A stretch of 64,000 nt of DNA, taken from assembly GCF_904528075.1 (NCBI RefSeq), contig NZ_LR882035.1:1736001-1800000 (forward strand). The letters run 5' to 3'. Origin of the DNA: Agreia sp. COWG (GTDB lineage: Bacteria > Actinomycetota > Actinomycetes > Actinomycetales > Microbacteriaceae). The notes beneath the pieces were generated by a model. The model had not been told where the DNA came from. It was given only the letters and a program-made list of their open reading frames with translations, and ran no database searches. Positions 3,315 to 32,609 of this stretch are shown in pieces (the stretch's first letter is position 1; each line of letters begins with the position of its first letter). Both the position numbers and the translations under genes were made by a program.

Positions 3315-3434
3315 AGTTGGTGATCCCCTTTCTCCTCATTGCGCGGTGCCCTGCACAGAATATGCGAGCTCTCTTTATCCGCGGCCGCTAGACGGCAACC
3401 TTGGAATCCTAGCAGACCCGCTTGACGGTGTCGT

Positions 3435-4832
3435 TCAGTGCTGAACGATGGCGATGGGCATCAACGATCGACGCATGCGCAGGTGGAGCCCTCCGCTTCG
3501 CGCGAGGATGACCCCGACGACCAGGGCGGCGGCCGCCGGAACGACGCCGGAGACGAGCATCCCGACATGCGCGCCATAGCTCTCGACGATCCAGCCCATC
3601 AGCGGCCCGCCGACGGCCTGACCGCCCAGCAGCACGAGCACGTAGACGCTCATGACACGACCACGGATGGCGACATTGCTCGACAGCTGGATCAGTTGAT
3701 TGGCCCCGGTGAGGAACTGCAGGGTGCAAAAGCCCACCAGAACGAGCAGGATGCCCACGCTCCATTGGGTCGGGGCGCCAGAGACGAGGGCCTGCACGAC
3801 GCCCCAGGCCAACCCGGTGATCACCACGGCGCGCAGCCGGATGCTCGCGCGCCTCGTGGAGAGCACAGCACCGATGAGCGCCCCCGCCGCGACCAGGGAG
3901 TTGAACAGGCCGTACCCCCCGGGGCCGGCGTCGAACACCGTCGATGCGTACGCGGCCAGAAGCACGGGCATGTTCAACGCGAAGATGGCGACGAAGCCGA
4001 CCATGATCACCGTCCAGAGGATGGCCGGCTTCGCGACGACGTAGGCGAGGCCCTCTTTCAACTGGCCCTTCGCCCGCGGGGCTACCGGGGCCGGAAAGAG
4101 TGTCGCGGGGTTGAGCCGCAGAACCGTGATCACGACTCCGATACAGGCGAGGGCGTTGATGGCGAACGACCACCCGGCACCCACCGACACGAGCAGCACG
4201 CCGCCGATGGCGGGGCCGATGAGGGCACCGAGCTGGAATACGGAGGAGTTGATGCTGATGGCGTTGCGCAGGTACGTCGGGCCCACCAGCTCGTTCACGA
4301 ACACCTGGCGCGTGGGGTTGTCGATCACGGTGGCGAGGCCCACGAGCAGCGCGACGGCCATGATGTGCCAGACCTCGACGACGCCGGTGAGTGCGAGCGC
4401 AGCCAGGGTGATGCTGGCGAGAACCGAGACGCTCTGGGTGATCGCCAGCAGAACCCGCTTGTCGTAGCGGTCGACCAGCACTCCCCCGTAGAGGCCGAGA
4501 AAGAGCATGGGGGCGAACTGCAGGGCGACCGTCACGCCGACCAGCGCGACGCTGCCGGAGAGCTCCAGCACCAACCAGTCCTGTGCGATCCTCTGGATCC
4601 ACAGTGCCGTCATCGCGACGATGTTGGCTGCGGTGAAGAGCCGGAAGTTGGGAACCCGCAGAGAGACCAAGGTCTCTCTCCACGGAGGACGGGTCGTGAG
4701 AACGGGCATGGGGGCGGTGACGGGATAGCCGTCGGAGGGTGGGGGCGTCACGAATAATCCAAGTGCGAGATGAGTGGGATGAGTTGTGTATGGGTGGGCG
4801 TCGAACGCCGTCTTCCTCAACGGTATTGCCAC
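3435..4832 (-). CDS. MFS transporter (EntS/MFS_3 type)
   Basis: A major facilitator of up to 465 residues with about 12 hydrophobic segments. The motif A-like loop reads GLYGGVLVDRYDKR, which places it with the EntS/MFS_3 drug and siderophore exporters. The substrate cannot be read from sequence. The first possible start is the GTG at 4832; an ATG at 4709 (residue 42) gives an N-terminus closer to the family, because the first transmembrane helix begins only after FRLF near residue 64. It is transcribed away from a LysR gene, with a 62-bp intergenic region, and another MFS of the same type follows the LysR gene. The LysR protein probably controls at least one of them. Confidence 0.9.
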   Translation of the reverse strand: MAIPLRKTAFDAHPYTTHPTHLALGLFVTPPPSDGYPVTAPMPVLTTRPPWRETLVSLRVPNFRLFTAANIVAMTALWIQRIAQDWLVLELSGSVALVGVTVALQFAPMLFLGLYGGVLVDRYDKRVLLAITQSVSVLASITLAALALTGVVEVWHIMAVALLVGLATVIDNPTRQVFVNELVGPTYLRNAISINSSVFQLGALIGPAIGGVLLVSVGAGWSFAINALACIGVVITVLRLNPATLFPAPVAPRAKGQLKEGLAYVVAKPAILWTVIMVGFVAIFALNMPVLLAAYASTVFDAGPGGYGLFNSLVAAGALIGAVLSTRRASIRLRAVVITGLAWGVVQALVSGAPTQWSVGILLVLVGFCTLQFLTGANQLIQLSSNVAIRGRVMSVYVLVLLGGQAVGGPLMGWIVESYGAHVGMLVSGVVPAAAALVVGVILARSGGLHLRMRRSLMPIAIVQH

Positions 4833-4894: not shown

Positions 4895-5749
4895 ATGTTC
4901 GACCCCGCGCTCCTTCGCACCTTTCTCGCCGTCGCCGAGACGGCGAGTTTCACCCTCGCCGCACAGCGACTCGGCATCAGCCAACCCACGGTCAGCCAGC
5001 AGGTGCGCAGGCTCGAGCAGGCATCCGGTCGCCTTCTCGTCGCACGCGACACCCGCGACGTGTCCTTGACCGACAACGGCGACGCCATGGCCGGATTCGC
5101 GAGAACGATCCTCGCGGCGCACAGCGCGGCCGAAGACTACTTCAGCGGGTCGGCGATGAAGGGCAAGCTGCGTTTCGGCACGGCTGACGACTTGGCCATC
5201 ACGCAGCTCCCCCGCATCCTGCGGCATTTTCGCCAGCTGTACCCGCAGATCAACCTCGAGCTCACCGTCGACCAGTCGGCCCCGCTCTTTCGCAAGCTGC
5301 ACGCCGGCTCGCTCGATCTCATCTTCATCAAGCAGAAGCCGGAGACGACGGATGGCACCGTGGTACGCCGCGACCAGCTCGTGTGGGTCGGCCACGAGAA
5401 GACGATCCTCGAGCAGGATGCTCCGGTTCCCCTCATCACCTACCAGGGCACGACCGTGAGTCGCACCAGCGCGATCGAAGCGCTCGAACAGGCCGGTCGG
5501 CGCTGGCGCATCACCTGCAACACGCGTGAGGTGAACGGACTTCTCGCCGCCGTGCGTGCCGGTCTCGGCGTCGCCGTCTTTCCGCGCTCGCTCATCCCCG
5601 ACGACCTCGTGGTCGTCAGCGCCCGTTTCGGCCTGCCCGTGCTCGGCGAGGTCGACCTCACCCTGCTGCGCAATCCCGGCGCGCCGGCGGAACCCGTCGA
5701 TGCACTCATCTCGGCCATCATGGGCCGCACCCTGAACAAGACGGCCTGA
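4895..5749 (+). CDS. LysR family transcriptional regulator
   Basis: A 284-residue LysR-type regulator. Residues 1-60 form the winged helix-turn-helix (FLAVAETASFTLAAQRLGISQPTVSQQVRRLE) and the remainder the periplasmic-binding-like effector domain (KLRFGTADDLAITQLPRI onward). The ATG at 4895 has GAGG at 4887-4890. It is divergent from one MFS exporter and lies 3 bp upstream of a second (5753), which suggests it regulates efflux or uptake of its own effector. The inverted repeat at 4850-4876 is the likely binding site. The effector is not deducible. Confidence 0.93.
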   Translation: MFDPALLRTFLAVAETASFTLAAQRLGISQPTVSQQVRRLEQASGRLLVARDTRDVSLTDNGDAMAGFARTILAAHSAAEDYFSGSAMKGKLRFGTADDLAITQLPRILRHFRQLYPQINLELTVDQSAPLFRKLHAGSLDLIFIKQKPETTDGTVVRRDQLVWVGHEKTILEQDAPVPLITYQGTTVSRTSAIEALEQAGRRWRITCNTREVNGLLAAVRAGLGVAVFPRSLIPDDLVVVSARFGLPVLGEVDLTLLRNPGAPAEPVDALISAIMGRTLNKTA

Positions 5750-5752
5750 CCC

Positions 5753-7078
5753 GTGAGCTCTCGCCCACCCGCGGCCCAGGGACGCCGCACTCATTTCGTC
5801 GATCTCACCCCGTTCCGTCGGAGTCCCGCGTTCTTCCGCCTCTGGCTCGGCGGCCTCATCGCCGGCGTCGGCGGTCAGATGACCGTGGTGGCGGTGGGCC
5901 TTCACCTCTACGACATCACCGGATCGACCTCCGCCGTCGCCCTTGTCGGCGTGTTCGCCCTCCTGCCCATGATCCTCGCCGGCGTCTACGGCGGGGTTCT
6001 CGCCGACACGTTCGACCGCCGCACCGTGGTGCTCATCGCCGAATTCCTGGCCTGGGGATCGACGGTGGGCCTCGCCGTTCTGGCCTGGAACCACCTCGAC
6101 GTGCTGTGGATGTTCTATGCGCTGACCACCGTCAACGCGGCGGCCACGACCGTGGTGGGTGCGACCAGGTCGGCCATCCTGCCTCGGCTACTCGCCCCCG
6201 ACCTGCTGCCGGCTGCATCCGCGCTCGGCGGGATCAGCTTCGGCGTTCAGGTCACGGTGGGGCCCGCCCTGGCGGGCGTTCTCGTGGCGACGGTGGGATT
6301 CCAATGGACCTACACGGTCGATGTGGTCCTATTCCTGGCCGCCTTCACCGGGGTGATCACGCTTCCCCGCATCGTGCCGGAGGGCAGCACACGCCGCGCC
6401 GGGTTCGGCGCCGTCTGGGAGGGGCTGAAGTTCTTGCGCCGAGCCCCGAACATCCGCATGTCGTTTCTCATCGACATCGTGGCCATGACATTCGGCATGC
6501 CTCGGGTGATCTTTCCGGCGGTGGGCGCTCTCCTCATCGGCGGAGGTGCCGTGACGGTCGGCATTCTGTCGGCCGCATTCGCCGTGGGGGCGCTGCTCTC
6601 GTCGGTCCTCTCCGGCCGCCTCGGCCACGTTCGCCGGCAGGGCCGCGCCATTGCTCGGGCCGTGGCCGTCTACGGCTCGTTCATCCTCGCGTTCGGCATC
6701 GTGCTGCTCGCCTCGGATCGTGGGGCCTCGTCGGGGATCGGCTCGTCGTTCGACGATGCGAATCTGCCCGCCCTCGTTCTCGCCAGCATCGCGCTGGCCG
6801 GCGCGGGAGCCGCTGACAACGTCAGCGCGATCTTTCGCCAGACCATGATGCAATCGGCCGTCCCCGACGTGATGAGGGGCCGCATCCAGGGCGTCTTCAC
6901 CGTGGTCGTCACGGGCGGGCCCCGGCTCGGCGACGCCTATGTCGGGCTGGCCGCAGCGACCGCACTGCTGTGGTTGCCCCCGCTTCTCGGCGGTGCGATC
7001 GTGGTGTTGTTCTCTCTGGCGGCGGCGCGGCTGCACCGATCGCTCCGCGCCTACGATGCACTGAGCCCGACCCCCTGA
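5753..7078 (+). CDS. MFS transporter (EntS/MFS_3 type)
   Basis: A 441-residue integral membrane transporter with about 12 helices, first helix at FFRLWLGGLIAGVGGQMTVV and motif A as GVYGGVLADTFDRR. It shares this loop with the MFS at 3435, so the two are probably old paralogues. The GTG at 5753 follows the LysR stop by 3 bp, which suggests co-transcription. Members of this family export drugs, siderophores or metabolites; the substrate here is unknown. The stop codon lies inside the hairpin at 7063-7091. Confidence 0.9.
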   Translation: MSSRPPAAQGRRTHFVDLTPFRRSPAFFRLWLGGLIAGVGGQMTVVAVGLHLYDITGSTSAVALVGVFALLPMILAGVYGGVLADTFDRRTVVLIAEFLAWGSTVGLAVLAWNHLDVLWMFYALTTVNAAATTVVGATRSAILPRLLAPDLLPAASALGGISFGVQVTVGPALAGVLVATVGFQWTYTVDVVLFLAAFTGVITLPRIVPEGSTRRAGFGAVWEGLKFLRRAPNIRMSFLIDIVAMTFGMPRVIFPAVGALLIGGGAVTVGILSAAFAVGALLSSVLSGRLGHVRRQGRAIARAVAVYGSFILAFGIVLLASDRGASSGIGSSFDDANLPALVLASIALAGAGAADNVSAIFRQTMMQSAVPDVMRGRIQGVFTVVVTGGPRLGDAYVGLAAATALLWLPPLLGGAIVVLFSLAAARLHRSLRAYDALSPTP

Positions 7079-27785: not shown

Positions 27786-28193
27786 ATGACCTCTCCCCTG
27801 CCGTACGGTGCTCCCACTCCCGCTTTCTTCTCCGGCCCCGAGGGAGTCTGGAATGCAGATCCGGTGGAGCTCGCCGCACGGCTCTTCGTCGCCGTCTTCC
27901 AAGCCCAGGCGTCGGCACCGCTCCCCCAGCGCGACGTGTCCGACGTCTACGACGCGGTGGCTGCCCTCGGGGGCTACGCCCTGCCCGCCCAACGCATCGG
28001 CAACACCCAACCTCTGGCACTGACGGTTCAGCTCGCCCAGGAATCCATCCTGAGGTGGGAGCGCGCCACCATCGCCACTCGCCTGTCGGCCGGATCGGGA
28101 CCCGTTTCGCACACCGTCACGATGCTCCGCTTCGGCCCGGGCATCCTGCAGGCGGCAGACCCCGTCGTCGCACTGCGCGAGCGACTCGGCTGA
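27786..28193 (+). CDS. conserved hypothetical protein
   Basis: A 135-residue soluble protein of unknown function that I do not recognise. It begins MTSPLPYGAPTPAFFSG and contains an LRWERATIATRL stretch and TVTMLRFGPGILQAADP. No signal peptide or membrane segment. Evidence that it is a gene: the promoter at 27751-27779 with the leaderless geometry, divergent placement from the epimerase gene and normal GC-rich codon use. The following Pr6Pr gene begins 65 bp after its stop. Confidence 0.7.
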   Translation: MTSPLPYGAPTPAFFSGPEGVWNADPVELAARLFVAVFQAQASAPLPQRDVSDVYDAVAALGGYALPAQRIGNTQPLALTVQLAQESILRWERATIATRLSAGSGPVSHTVTMLRFGPGILQAADPVVALRERLG

Positions 28194-28257: not shown

Positions 28258-28944
28258 GTGCGGCCTGCCCTGAATGTGCGACGTCCCGGGGGCGGCATCA
28301 CCCTGCGGGGCTCGTTCGGCGTGGCCCGCGTCATCGTGGCCATTGTCGGAGCCGTCGCGCTGGTAGGCGATTACCAGTACATTCTGGGCTTCTCCAGCTT
28401 CTCGAAGGCCAACTACTTCGCCTACTTCACGAATCAGAGCAATGGAGCGGGCGTGGTGGTGCTCGCCCTCGGGGCGTGGTTCGCGATGCGTCGCGCGACC
28501 GATCCGGCCGCGCTGGTGACCGGCGGCATGCTGACGTCGACGTACACGATCATCTCGGGCGTGGTGTTCGGGCTCATCGTGAGCCAGGCCGGCGACTACA
28601 ACTACAAGATCGTGGTGCCCTGGTCGAGTCAGGTTCTGCACTTCTGGATCCCGGCCTACGTGATCCTCGACTGGATCTTCGCACCGGGCCGGCGGCCCAT
28701 ACCGTGGTCTCGCCTGTGGCTCGTGCTGATCTATCCGGTGGTCTGGGGAGTGTTCACGATCTGGCGCGGCTCGGTTGTCGGCTGGTATCCCTACTTCTTC
28801 CTCGACCCGGGTCAGGTGTCCGTGCCCTTCGAGTTCGCGGCCTACTCCGGCGGCATCGTCGTCGTGATCACCGGCCTCGCGGCGGCGCTGATAGCGCTGA
28901 CACACCGGCGTCGCGAACACGCGCCCGTTGCGTCCGAGGCCTGA
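28258..28944 (+). CDS. Pr6Pr family membrane protein
   Basis: A 228-residue protein with six predicted transmembrane segments. The family pattern is visible: YFTNQSN near residue 60, HFWIPAYVILDWIF near 135 and WGVFTIWRG followed by GWYPYFFLDP. Pr6Pr proteins resemble the FAR-17a/AIG1 hydrolase family, but bacterial members have no proven function. Start GTG at 28258 is set by the TANNNT box. The stop abuts the stop of the convergent flavin amine oxidase gene (TGATCA), so the two transcripts must overlap or end within coding sequence. Confidence 0.85.
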   Translation: MRPALNVRRPGGGITLRGSFGVARVIVAIVGAVALVGDYQYILGFSSFSKANYFAYFTNQSNGAGVVVLALGAWFAMRRATDPAALVTGGMLTSTYTIISGVVFGLIVSQAGDYNYKIVVPWSSQVLHFWIPAYVILDWIFAPGRRPIPWSRLWLVLIYPVVWGVFTIWRGSVVGWYPYFFLDPGQVSVPFEFAAYSGGIVVVITGLAAALIALTHRRREHAPVASEA

Positions 28945-30444
28945 TCAGCTCTGCGGCAGGAACGCCACCAAGCTGGAGAGTGCGAGATCGCGCACGTCGT
29001 CGTCGCCCAGCTCGGAGAGTGCCCTCGCATCGTCACCGCCGACGAGGCCGATGAGGACGGCGTCGCCGGTGATCGGCATGAGATTGATCCACTGTGTGAT
29101 CGAGGGCGTAAGCGAGCCGCCGACGGTGGGCTCAGGCGTCGCGAGAAATGAGGGCTGCGCAGCGGCGGTGTATGCCTCCGCCGCGGACACGACGCTCCAG
29201 AACACCGCCTCGTCGGTCCAGAACGGCTCGTCGTAGCGCAGCCACACCTTTTCGACGGCCCCCATACCCAGGGCGGCGACGGCGGCGCGGTGCGCGAACG
29301 GGAGCGGCGGATCGAACGCGATGGAATCGGACTGAAGCACGCCCAGGGGCACGGTCACGATGACCCTGTCGAGGGTGATCGACTCCCCCGTCGCCATCTT
29401 CAGCCGAACGCCGCTGTCGTCGTAGGAGACCTCGCGAACGGGCGTCGAGAGCGAGACATCGGCACCGTCGAGGCCATCGACCACGACGTCTGTCACCGAT
29501 CCCGCGATGAAGGCCGCCGAGCCGTCTGATGAGCCTCGATCGTCGAGTCCGTACCAGGTCGACAGCTCATTCGCGTCAGCGCCGAGCTGCGAGACCACGG
29601 CGCGGTCGACGTAGGCGGCCACCCGAGAGGCGGCGCTGACGCCGGATGAGTCGGGCGCGGCATCGATGGCAGCACCGCCGGCACCGGCCAGCGCCGTCGA
29701 GAGGTCGACGTCGCGATTCTGTGCAGCGCCCCAGGTGACGGCCGCGGCGACGGCATCTTCTCCGACCGTGTCGACGGGCACGACAGCTGCGGTCGGGCTG
29801 CGCTGGCTCACCGAGGTCGAGTCGAAGGCAACCGTCCGTACGCCGAGGGCGTCGAGTCGCGATCCGAGCTGGGTCGCGTCTACATCGTGCAGAATCGACG
29901 GCCCGAGGTCGACGAGGAACGGCCATTCACCCTGGTCGCGGGCATCAACCCGCCCGCCGACCCGGTCCCTGCCTTCGAAGACCAGCACCTCGTGGCCCGC
30001 CGCCACGAGGGCACGTGCCGCTGCGGCGCCCGCCAGCCCCGCCCCGATGATCCCGACTCGCTCGCGGTCTGCGGCATAGACGAGCACGTCGTTTGCCGCC
30101 CTCGTTCCCGAGGACTGCGCGCCGGCCAGGCTGCCCGGCGCGTCGACGCTCGTGGCCTCCCCCGCAAAGAACAGCCTTTTCGACACCGGCTGGGCCAGTG
30201 CCGAGCGAGCGTCGGGCGCGGAGCCGACGGGCAGATAGCTCGATGCGCCGCGAGAGAACGGATCCGTGGTCCAGTTCGAGCGAACGAAACCGGATGGCCG
30301 AGGAACCTCGCCGGTCGGCGTCGGTGACGGCGTGGAGGCCGTCTTCGAGGGCCGCGGTGCGGGCGGACCGACGCAGGCCGTCAGCGCGAGCACAGCGGCC
30401 GATGTCGCCGCGCCCGCGAGAAAGGTGCGTCGGTCCACGTTCAT
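28945..30444 (-). CDS. circularly permuted flavin amine oxidase, Tat lipoprotein
   Basis: A 499-residue flavoprotein exported by the Tat pathway and lipid-anchored: MNVDRRTFLAG has the RRxFL motif and LTAC (C24) is a lipobox. A Ser/Thr/Pro linker runs to residue 50. The order of the flavin amine oxidase motifs is inverted. W58..DPFSRGASSYLPVGS and RLFFAGEATSVDAPGSLAGAQSSG (about 57-115) normally form the C-terminus but come first. The FAD Rossmann motif GAGLAG (134-139) and RDRVGGR follow. The protein ends at LSSLVAFLPQS, just where the missing C-terminal part would start. It should oxidise an amine at the outer membrane face. The start is ATG at 30444; two upstream genes may be co-transcribed. 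Confidence 0.85.
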   Translation of the reverse strand: MNVDRRTFLAGAATSAAVLALTACVGPPAPRPSKTASTPSPTPTGEVPRPSGFVRSNWTTDPFSRGASSYLPVGSAPDARSALAQPVSKRLFFAGEATSVDAPGSLAGAQSSGTRAANDVLVYAADRERVGIIGAGLAGAAAARALVAAGHEVLVFEGRDRVGGRVDARDQGEWPFLVDLGPSILHDVDATQLGSRLDALGVRTVAFDSTSVSQRSPTAAVVPVDTVGEDAVAAAVTWGAAQNRDVDLSTALAGAGGAAIDAAPDSSGVSAASRVAAYVDRAVVSQLGADANELSTWYGLDDRGSSDGSAAFIAGSVTDVVVDGLDGADVSLSTPVREVSYDDSGVRLKMATGESITLDRVIVTVPLGVLQSDSIAFDPPLPFAHRAAVAALGMGAVEKVWLRYDEPFWTDEAVFWSVVSAAEAYTAAAQPSFLATPEPTVGGSLTPSITQWINLMPITGDAVLIGLVGGDDARALSELGDDDVRDLALSSLVAFLPQS

Positions 30445-30476: not shown

Positions 30477-31052
30477 TCACTGCGCGGAGAGGTCCGGCAG
30501 CCTGATCGGTCGAGACATCGGGGGCAGGTCGTTCACGCGCTCGAGAGCAGGTCGCAATTCGGACAACCACGCGTCGTAACCGGCGGCCGTCAGGTGCAGC
30601 CGATCGTCGGTGTATTCGGGGCTCAATTCGCCATCACCCCGGGCGAGCGCGGGCCAGAGATCGAGGTAGTGCACGCGCTGGGTGGCGGCGAACTGCCAGA
30701 TGTGACGGTTGATCTCTCGAACGTTCTCGGCGAATTCGTGTCCGCGGGGAAGAACGGAGACCAACAGGATGCGCGCGTCGGGCAGCTCCGAGTGCAGACG
30801 TACGAGTGCGGTCTCGATGTTGCGCACGATGCGTTCGATGCTGCGCCTCTCGGCCAGGTCGTTCGTTCCGATGAGAAGGACGATCGTCTGCGGGTCGCTC
30901 GCGATGACCTCGTCGAGCCTCTCGATGAGGCCGTCCGTGGTGTCGCCGTCGACGCCGAAGTTGCGAGTCGAGAGTTCGGGGAACCACTCGTCCCAGGCTC
31001 CTGCCGCTGTAATGCTGTCCCCCACGAATGCGGTTACGGGCTTGTCAGTCAT
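30477..31052 (-). CDS. SGNH/GDSL-type hydrolase
   Basis: A 191-residue esterase-like hydrolase. Block I is AFVGDSITAAG (catalytic Ser), block III is IGTNDLAE (Asn), and block V is DRLHLTAAGYDAW (Asp and His). It lacks a signal peptide, so it is cytoplasmic. Substrate unknown; relatives deacylate sugars, lipids or thioesters. The ATG at 31052 is chosen because a GGAGG Shine-Dalgarno lies 4 nt upstream; the ATG at 31079 lacks one. Between the SDR-DUF2867 gene and the flavin amine oxidase, with gaps of 39 and 32 bp, it is likely part of one transcript. Confidence 0.88.
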   Translation of the reverse strand: MTDKPVTAFVGDSITAAGAWDEWFPELSTRNFGVDGDTTDGLIERLDEVIASDPQTIVLLIGTNDLAERRSIERIVRNIETALVRLHSELPDARILLVSVLPRGHEFAENVREINRHIWQFAATQRVHYLDLWPALARGDGELSPEYTDDRLHLTAAGYDAWLSELRPALERVNDLPPMSRPIRLPDLSAQ

Positions 31053-31091
31053 TGTGCCTCCGAGCTTGTCACCTGCCATGATACGCGGGCG

Positions 31092-32609
31092 TCATTTTGC
31101 GGTGGCCGGGGCGCCGTTCCCTTGCGCCTGTGCTGCCTTCTCCGCCGTCGCTGTGATGCGGTTGGCCATGCCGTTGAAGATGACGCCGTGGAACGGCAGG
31201 ATGGCGAACCAGTAGAGGCGTCCTCCGAGCCCGCGCGGAAAGAACACCGCCCTCTGGTCGTAGAACGAGCCCTCGCCGTTGGCAGCAGGTGTCGAGCGCA
31301 TCTCGAGCCACGCGAGGCCAGGCACCTTCATCTCTGCCCGGAGCCTCAGGAGGGAACCCCGCTCGATGGTCTCGACCCTCCAGAAGTCGAGGGCGTCCCC
31401 CGTGTGCAGCTCCGTCTGGCTGCGGCGACCTCGCCGCAGTCCGACTCCGCCCACGAGCTTGTCCATCCAGCCGCGCGCGGCCCATGCCACGGGAAACGAG
31501 TACCAGCCGTTCTCGCCACCGATTCCCTCGATGACGCTCCACAGCGCGTCGCTCGGCGCCGTGGTCACCCGCCTCTTGGTGTCGAGGAAGACGGTGTGTC
31601 CCGCCCACTCGGGGTCGCTCGGCAGCGGATCGCTCGCAGCGCCCTGCACGACGGCGTTCTGCCAGCTCGTCTCCACCTGACCGGACTTCATTCGGCCGAG
31701 CGCGAGACGCACGGAGCGCCTGTAGGGCGTGAGCCCGCCATCCGGATCGGGAATCAGCTCGCGGATGTCGTCTTCGTGCGCGACGCAGTCGAACTGCAGC
31801 GACGCGATGATGGGCACGGCGAGAGAACGCGGAATGGGCGTGACCAGGTTGACCCACTGCGACGCGAGCCACGGTGTCATCACCGGGAGCGAGGCGATCG
31901 GGCGCTGCTTGAGCCCGGCCTCCAGGGCGTAGCCGTTCATCATCTGCCCGTACCGCAGAACATCGGGCCCGCCGATGTCGAAGGTGCGATTGACGTCGGC
32001 CGGCACGCTGGCCGCGTGCACCAGGTAGTAGAGCACATCGCGAATGGCGATGGGCTGGATCTTGTTGCGCACCCAACGCGGAGCCGGCATGTAGGGAAGC
32101 ACCTCGGTGAGGTGGCGCACCATCTCGAAGGACGTCGAGCCCGAGCCGATGATGACCCCGGCCTGCAGCGCGACCGTGGGCACTCCCGATGCGATCAGGA
32201 TGTCGCCGACGAGCTTGCGGCTCTCGAGGTGTTCCGAGAGCCGGCCCTCGGCAGGATGCAGCCCTCCCAGGTAGACGATGCGGTCGACGCCGGCGCTCGC
32301 GGCCGCGGCGGCCACGTTTCGAGCGGCCTGCCCTTCCTGCTCCCGGAAGTGCCCGGGGCGGCCCATCGAATGCACGAGGTAGTAGAGCACCCCGACGCCG
32401 TCGAATGCGTCGACCAGCGTCGCGGGGTCATCGAGGTCGCCCGTGGCGACCTCGACGTCGGGAGCCCACGGCACGTCCCGGAGCTTTAGCGGGCTACGCA
32501 CGAGCACGCGTACGCGGTAGCCGGCCTCGATGAGTCGGGGAACGAGTCTGCCGCCGACGTACCCGGTTGCTCCGGTGACGAGGGCAAGAGGCAACTCTGA
32601 GGAGGTCAT
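31092..32609 (-). CDS. SDR-DUF2867 fusion oxidoreductase
   Basis: A 505-residue protein. Residues 1-310 are an NAD(P)-binding atypical SDR with TGATGYVGGRLVPRL, YLVHSMG and YLGGLHP; residues about 325-490 are a DUF2867 domain (SRPBCC-like fold). This fusion is common in actinobacteria and proteobacteria, and no enzymatic function is established. The ATG at 32609 has TAGCGT 6 nt upstream. Downstream on the strand are the GDSL hydrolase and the permuted flavin amine oxidase, likely an operon. Confidence 0.88.
   Translation of the reverse strand: MTSSELPLALVTGATGYVGGRLVPRLIEAGYRVRVLVRSPLKLRDVPWAPDVEVATGDLDDPATLVDAFDGVGVLYYLVHSMGRPGHFREQEGQAARNVAAAAASAGVDRIVYLGGLHPAEGRLSEHLESRKLVGDILIASGVPTVALQAGVIIGSGSTSFEMVRHLTEVLPYMPAPRWVRNKIQPIAIRDVLYYLVHAASVPADVNRTFDIGGPDVLRYGQMMNGYALEAGLKQRPIASLPVMTPWLASQWVNLVTPIPRSLAVPIIASLQFDCVAHEDDIRELIPDPDGGLTPYRRSVRLALGRMKSGQVETSWQNAVVQGAASDPLPSDPEWAGHTVFLDTKRRVTTAPSDALWSVIEGIGGENGWYSFPVAWAARGWMDKLVGGVGLRRGRRSQTELHTGDALDFWRVETIERGSLLRLRAEMKVPGLAWLEMRSTPAANGEGSFYDQRAVFFPRGLGGRLYWFAILPFHGVIFNGMANRITATAEKAAQAQGNGAPATAK

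Follow-up and report, generated by a model that had tools for sequence, protein, structure and literature searches.

Few flavoenzymes have been studied as thoroughly as the flavin amine oxidases. These include the monoamine oxidases MAO-A and MAO-B, the polyamine oxidases, and the amine oxidase domain of LSD1 and LSD2 (KDM1A and KDM1B), all of which have the standard order of the superfamily, with the Rossmann block first and the block carrying the FAGE-T motif last. In MAO enzymes the flavin is bound covalently and a membrane helix lies at the C terminus, and LSD1 and LSD2 are eukaryotic nuclear enzymes with extra domains and no twin-arginine translocation (Tat) signal. Here we describe a gene of Agreia sp. 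COWG, found in a 64,000-nucleotide stretch of contig NZ_LR882035.1 (the window, positions 1,736,001 to 1,800,000), whose product shares the family PF01593 with the MAO enzymes and polyamine oxidases but, unlike these and LSD1/LSD2, has the two blocks in reversed order. It also differs from MAO in its membrane attachment, a predicted N-terminal lipid anchor. With NicA2 and Pnao, bacterial Tat-exported amine oxidoreductases, it shares the Tat signal and the superfamily; PMC12224317 describes these two with an adjacent cytochrome c gene, whereas we found none among the 28 neighbour proteins scanned here. The string 'permut' does not occur in that paper's main text. Our reading, to which we give a probability of about 90%, is that the protein belongs to the flavin amine oxidase (MAO/LSD/polyamine oxidase) superfamily and that its circular permutation is natural. 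Listings of the open-licence literature, one of them limited to 30 of 317 papers, gave no description of a permuted amine oxidase, which does not show that none is in print.

Block order of the Agreia protein

The gene (28945..30444, minus strand) is open throughout, from an ATG at 30444 to a stop at 28945, and its translation gives 499 residues (P0001). The protein matches Pfam PF01593 with 197.3 bits (cut-off 19.8), and the match is split into two stretches. In a HMMER search of the PDB, a single LSD2 chain is matched three times, by query residues 128-167 (on 337-376), 320-412 (on 535-628), and 45-121 (on 698-774). The LSD2 blocks thus align in reversed order, and the last block of the standard enzyme stands first here. 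The PDB search likewise aligns residues 49-121 to residues 379-451 of MAO-B.

The segments can be placed along the minus strand as follows. From the LSD2 and MAO-B alignments, residues 52-121 (30082..30291) are the displaced block, equivalent to the C-terminal segment of standard amine oxidases that binds flavin adenine dinucleotide (FAD; W-DPFS ... FFAGEAT ... SG). Its motifs are W58-TTDPFS (W-x2-DPFS), FAGEAT at 93-98, and a GAQSSG helix. Residues 122-127 (30064..30081), as judged from the gap between the blocks and from the predicted local distance difference test (pLDDT), form the new junction that joins the old C terminus to the old N terminus. The Rossmann block, N-terminal in standard enzymes, follows at residues 128-190 (29875..30063), with GAGLAG at 134-139 (Pfam, PDB match, and alignment), and residues 191-499 (28948..29874) hold the substrate domain and the middle FAD segment. 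The chain ends in ..LALSSLVAFLPQS (..AFLPQS), the point where the displaced block starts in standard enzymes. Both the GxGxxG Rossmann motif and the C-terminal FAD-binding segment are in the protein, in the order opposite to that of the superfamily. The old termini are joined, the new ones lie within one former loop, and each segment is kept once, which is what defines a circular permutation. We claim membership in PF01593 only as a permuted variant, that is, as what the alignments indicate to be a change of connectivity inside a homologous family.

A preliminary description, made from the letters of the window, had proposed this much: one open frame without a frameshift, the second block ahead of the Rossmann motif, and a circular permutation instead of a fusion. 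The intact frame, the motif positions, the reversed mapping on LSD2, and the single copy of each block bear it out. The structure prediction it called for gave a confident AlphaFold2 model (pLDDT 87.6, predicted template modelling score 0.84), with ten-residue pLDDT means of 91-98 across residues 51-120 and a mean of 97 across 121-130. A sequential structure aligner fits only residues 125-499, on LSD1 276-738. Such an alignment does not test the moved block, and its restriction to 125-499 is expected if residues 52-121 are a displaced segment. In an alignment of 59 rows, made of every second listed Microbacteriaceae-type protein longer than 430 residues, no row departs from W58, D61, and E96 in the moved block, nor from W452 and N454.

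Distribution of the permuted order

In three protein searches, scoring was applied to the candidates with the most words in common (7998, 7995, and 7997), and the best 120 of each were listed. Block order was tested with three small profile models, for the Rossmann block (A), the displaced block (B), and the last part before the cut (C). The first homology search returned 805 matches. Each of the best 120 is ordered B-A-C, and in three a further, weak match to A lies inside B; a simpler pattern test on the same proteins gave 107 permuted, 13 undecided, and no standard ones. The second search, started from a deeper permuted alignment, had 4024 matches, and the best 120 are again all B-A-C. Homologues with the same order, which the preliminary description had suggested looking for, are numerous: they comprise the 240 listed proteins and relatives in many independent genomes.

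Among the matches listed in named genomes, 79 of 80 loci have the permuted order, and the only standard-order locus (L109) belongs to an Anaerolineales metagenome-assembled genome (MAG). One locus counted as permuted, in the Naasia aerilata chromosome (L100, 7953-9406), has its gene split over two frames within the displaced block. Two named Agreia genomes share the arrangement at 65% identity (query 1-499 and 1-496), so the linker cannot be a joining error confined to this assembly. Within Microbacteriaceae, a single match spans both blocks in at least 46 of 150 genomes, the family having been assigned through the nearest named relatives. The order was checked directly in 35 of the 46 (30 loci plus L116, L117, L142, L146, and L147), and the other 11 are represented by one match across both blocks. 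Standard-order amine oxidases are also present in Microbacteriaceae (L122-L132).

Outside this family, permuted genes were found in MAGs of Acidimicrobiia and other Actinomycetota. In one further class the gene is present in at least 4 of 148 genomes, a sample that partly overlaps one of those behind the Acidimicrobiia and other Actinomycetota matches, and in Pseudomonadota in at least 5 of 398, the centre genome included; the order was checked in both. Two of the five Pseudomonadota proteins (L169, L170) lack an evident signal peptide and are perhaps cytoplasmic. All these genome counts are lower bounds, with at most 10 candidates scored per genome in the 150 Microbacteriaceae, 11 in the 148-genome class, 4 in Pseudomonadota, and 4 in one of the scans behind the Acidimicrobiia and other Actinomycetota matches. 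Ten plasmid records matched, none covering 80% of the query in one place, and block order was not examined there. Where sources name the listed proteins, the usual annotations are flavin monoamine oxidase family protein, monoamine oxidase, and FAD-dependent oxidoreductase.

Cut point and origin

The nearest standard enzymes were sought with a permuted protein rearranged back into standard order. The 117 newly listed proteins comprise 80 permuted, 32 standard, and 5 incomplete ones. The cut is clean in the proteins compared: where standard enzymes read ..MFGKNIPAPLRTKLTRWRSDPF.., permuted proteins end in ..FDG, ..FE, or ..MYQTA and start with ..VPNPTGALITRWRADP... Judged against these nearest standard-order relatives, the cut falls in one loop. 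Like the size of the family and the conserved neighbour gene, this lay beyond the reach of the preliminary description. Across 320 permuted proteins the median B-A gap is 6 residues (range 5-8 in 120 of Microbacteriaceae type, 4-16 in 200 deeper ones), and the median length of the standard C-B loop is 10 (32 standard proteins).

The ancestor would have been a standard-order enzyme, probably already secreted, whose old ends became joined through a linker of about six residues and whose chain was cut open anew in the loop preceding the W-DP-F/Y-S motif. The simplest route would be an in-frame duplication followed by loss of the outer pieces; each block is present and none is doubled, as permutation by duplication predicts. 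The tree built on 74 permuted plus 45 standard rows has 3 order changes, and the removal of 8 long rows (leaving 72 and 39) brings this to 2. On these 72 and 39 rows, the tree that keeps the permuted rows together beats the free search by a log-likelihood of 6.2, with a p-value of 0.60 in the approximately unbiased test. When more Pseudomonadota rows are added and 7 rows are removed (84 and 44), there are 3 changes, of which strongly supported branches force only one. A single origin of the permuted order is compatible with these data, and the trees do not reject it.

Predicted export signal and flavin-N5 lysine

Tat exports folded cofactor proteins, and lipobox cysteines become lipidated. The N-terminus of the protein, MNVDRRTFLAGAATSAAVLALTAC, is a Tat-like signal with a lipobox: in sequence and alignment, residues 1-24 (30373..30444, minus strand) form a Tat-type signal (RRTFL) with the lipobox LTAC at its end (Cys24), and R5, R6, L9, and C24 are invariant across a 28-row alignment. 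The Pfam profile TAT_signal (PF10518) scores 14.2 bits, under its cut-off of 22.7. A Pro/Thr/Ser-rich linker follows at residues 25-51 (30292..30372, minus strand), with pLDDT below 50 at 25-28 and 30-42. Because pattern counts find the Tat motif and the lipobox together in 203 of 320 permuted proteins (99 of 120 of Microbacteriaceae type, 104 of 200 deeper ones), the enzyme is probably located on the membrane's outer face. The signal would export the folded FAD enzyme, Cys24 would anchor it to that face, and the tether would enter at the permuted loop.

Lys399 (29248..29250, minus strand) occupies the alignment column of the flavin-N5 lysine, a residue name used in PMC12224317. The 120 listed Microbacteriaceae-type proteins have K in 65, T in 34, Q in 11, S in 4, and other residues in 6, while the lysine is kept in all 120 permuted proteins of the second search and in 51 of 52 standard-order ones. 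In 118 permuted loci, which overlap one another and the protein sets, the column holds K 51, T 40, S 8, Q 5, A 5, V 4, R 4, and L 1. One branch of the permuted family has, to judge from these columns, lost the lysine while keeping the motif residues that were checked.

A conserved membrane protein neighbour

Immediately beyond the stop of the oxidase gene, a convergent gene (28258..28944, plus strand) encodes a 228-residue Pr6Pr family membrane protein (NCBIfam NF038065, 103.3 bits, cut-off 30). In Microbacteriaceae a Pr6Pr gene stands beside the permuted oxidase gene, almost always in tail-to-tail orientation (44 of 46 genomes); eight other neighbours tested are not conserved there. In Microbacterium stercoris (L083, 9353-9805), and in no other named locus, it is co-directional with the oxidase gene, and in two genomes Pr6Pr genes flank the oxidase gene on both sides (L145 of G076, 3373-4089 and 5479-6267; G139:C3:273298-273789 and 275333-275812). 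The neighbour weakly resembles the lipid enzymes AIG1 and TMEM164 and is possibly a relative of the AIG1/ADTRP/TMEM164 group (profile PF04750), the matches being weak, with Z within 1 of an unrelated row. No PDB entry matched its sequence with an E below 0.15, and Foldseek yielded no match with E up to 0.001. One histidine is invariant across 14 rows. The open-licence literature searched yielded no description of Pr6Pr.

No constant neighbour was seen outside Microbacteriaceae, where genes for TetR, glycolipid-binding, methyltransferase, HemD, APH-type kinase, and other proteins occur at different loci, with HemD and the APH-type kinase both present at the related loci L103 and L107 and the glycolipid-binding protein at L090 and L095. 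In the window, a likely operon upstream of the oxidase (30477-32609, minus strand) runs from an NmrA/epimerase-DUF2867 protein through a GDSL lipase to the oxidase; these two genes were found near the oxidase only in the two Agreia loci. A small protein without Pfam or NCBIfam match (27786-28193, plus strand) is 87% identical in the same two loci.

Discussion

That assembly or annotation joined two neighbouring gene pieces in this genome is next to impossible, given matches that span both blocks in at least 46 of 150 genomes of the family, the same order in 79 of 80 named loci and in the 240 listed proteins, and a junction of nearly constant length among permuted proteins. A frameshift and a fusion with a foreign domain were rejected on the intact 499-residue frame and the recurrence of the order in independent genomes. 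It is very improbable that a partial duplication or fusion made the N-terminal block an extra copy or a separate regulatory domain, with the C-terminal segment lacking or borrowed in trans within a dimer. The restriction of sequential aligners to residues 125-499 would suit such a history, but each block is present in one copy, W58, D61, and E96 are invariant in 59 of 59 rows, the moved block is predicted with high confidence, and the end of the chain coincides with the point of its excision. Homology links the N-terminal block to the C-terminal block of standard enzymes and not to a separate domain with another role, the possibility raised in the preliminary description.

Another question is what the permuted proteins do. 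With the lysine in only 65 of 120 Microbacteriaceae-type proteins, against 120/120 and 67/80 of other permuted and 51/52 of standard ones, they might be degenerate flavin-binding proteins and not amine oxidoreductases. We consider this unlikely, since the window protein has the lysine and the motif residues, W452 and N454 included, are invariant in 59 of 59 rows; moreover, a family member with Glu for the lysine was assayed in PMC12224317, with the lowest O2 rate among the enzymes tested there. Somewhat less doubtful, yet still not what we would expect, is a dehydrogenase that, like NicA2, hands its electrons to a membrane acceptor or a cytochrome. The loss of the lysine in about half of the listed Microbacteriaceae-type proteins would fit, as would the statement in PMC12224317 that Tat-exported relatives are dehydrogenases when a cytochrome c gene lies next to theirs. 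However, the scan of 28 neighbour proteins found no cytochrome c family, most tested Tat enzymes without such a gene nearby react fast with O2 (PMC12224317), and the single invariant histidine of the Pr6Pr neighbour (14 rows) is too few for a bis-His haem.

Several observations weigh against a circularly permuted, exported amine oxidase as we read it. A B-A-C-B duplication intermediate was looked for among the classified proteins and none was seen, and the 3, 2, and 3 order changes of the free trees leave room for a second event or a reversion. The argument for Tat export and lipidation is one from motifs, and both motifs are missing from 21 of the 200 deeper proteins and from 2 of the 120 of Microbacteriaceae type, some of which are fragments. 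The N5 lysine is absent in 55 of 120 Microbacteriaceae-type proteins and replaced in 13 of the 80 permuted proteins of the rearranged-query search (K 67, Arg 12, Ser 1). Since it is missing in part of the family, O2 use cannot be assumed for all members.

The best reading is an amine oxidase or dehydrogenase that is located on the membrane's outer face and combines ordinary chemistry with permuted connectivity. Block order, family, cut point, and conservation of the neighbour are observed, while export, anchoring, FAD binding, activity, electron acceptor, duplication route, and cooperation with the neighbour are inferred. Neither the fold nor the FAD site would depart from the standard, and the last FAD-binding segment would run straight into the Rossmann strand. 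The enzyme would oxidise an amine and, as Lys399 is present, pass the electrons to O2, beside the Pr6Pr membrane protein whose gene lies tail to tail with its own; this conserved neighbour suggests an amine linked to lipid metabolism as substrate. As a speculation with little chance of holding in full, oxidase and Pr6Pr could form one Microbacteriaceae surface system. The Pr6Pr protein would be an acyl hydrolase or acyltransferase of AIG1/TMEM164 type (Thr58/His128) that frees or remodels a lipid carrying an amine, and the oxidase, held above it by its lipid anchor, would oxidise that amine. The anchor would have been shifted by the permutation, turning the active-site funnel towards the membrane, and in the lysine-free branch the oxidase would have become a dehydrogenase.

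The enzyme superfamily is known; what is new is the swapped connectivity, together with the conserved Pr6Pr neighbour and the lysine-free branch. The last two offer an entry to a surface process of which we found no description in the literature searched. Current annotation hides the rearrangement. This large natural permuted branch is a scaffold with new termini, and it provides a direct test of how connectivity relates to folding and cofactor loading in a two-domain flavoenzyme.
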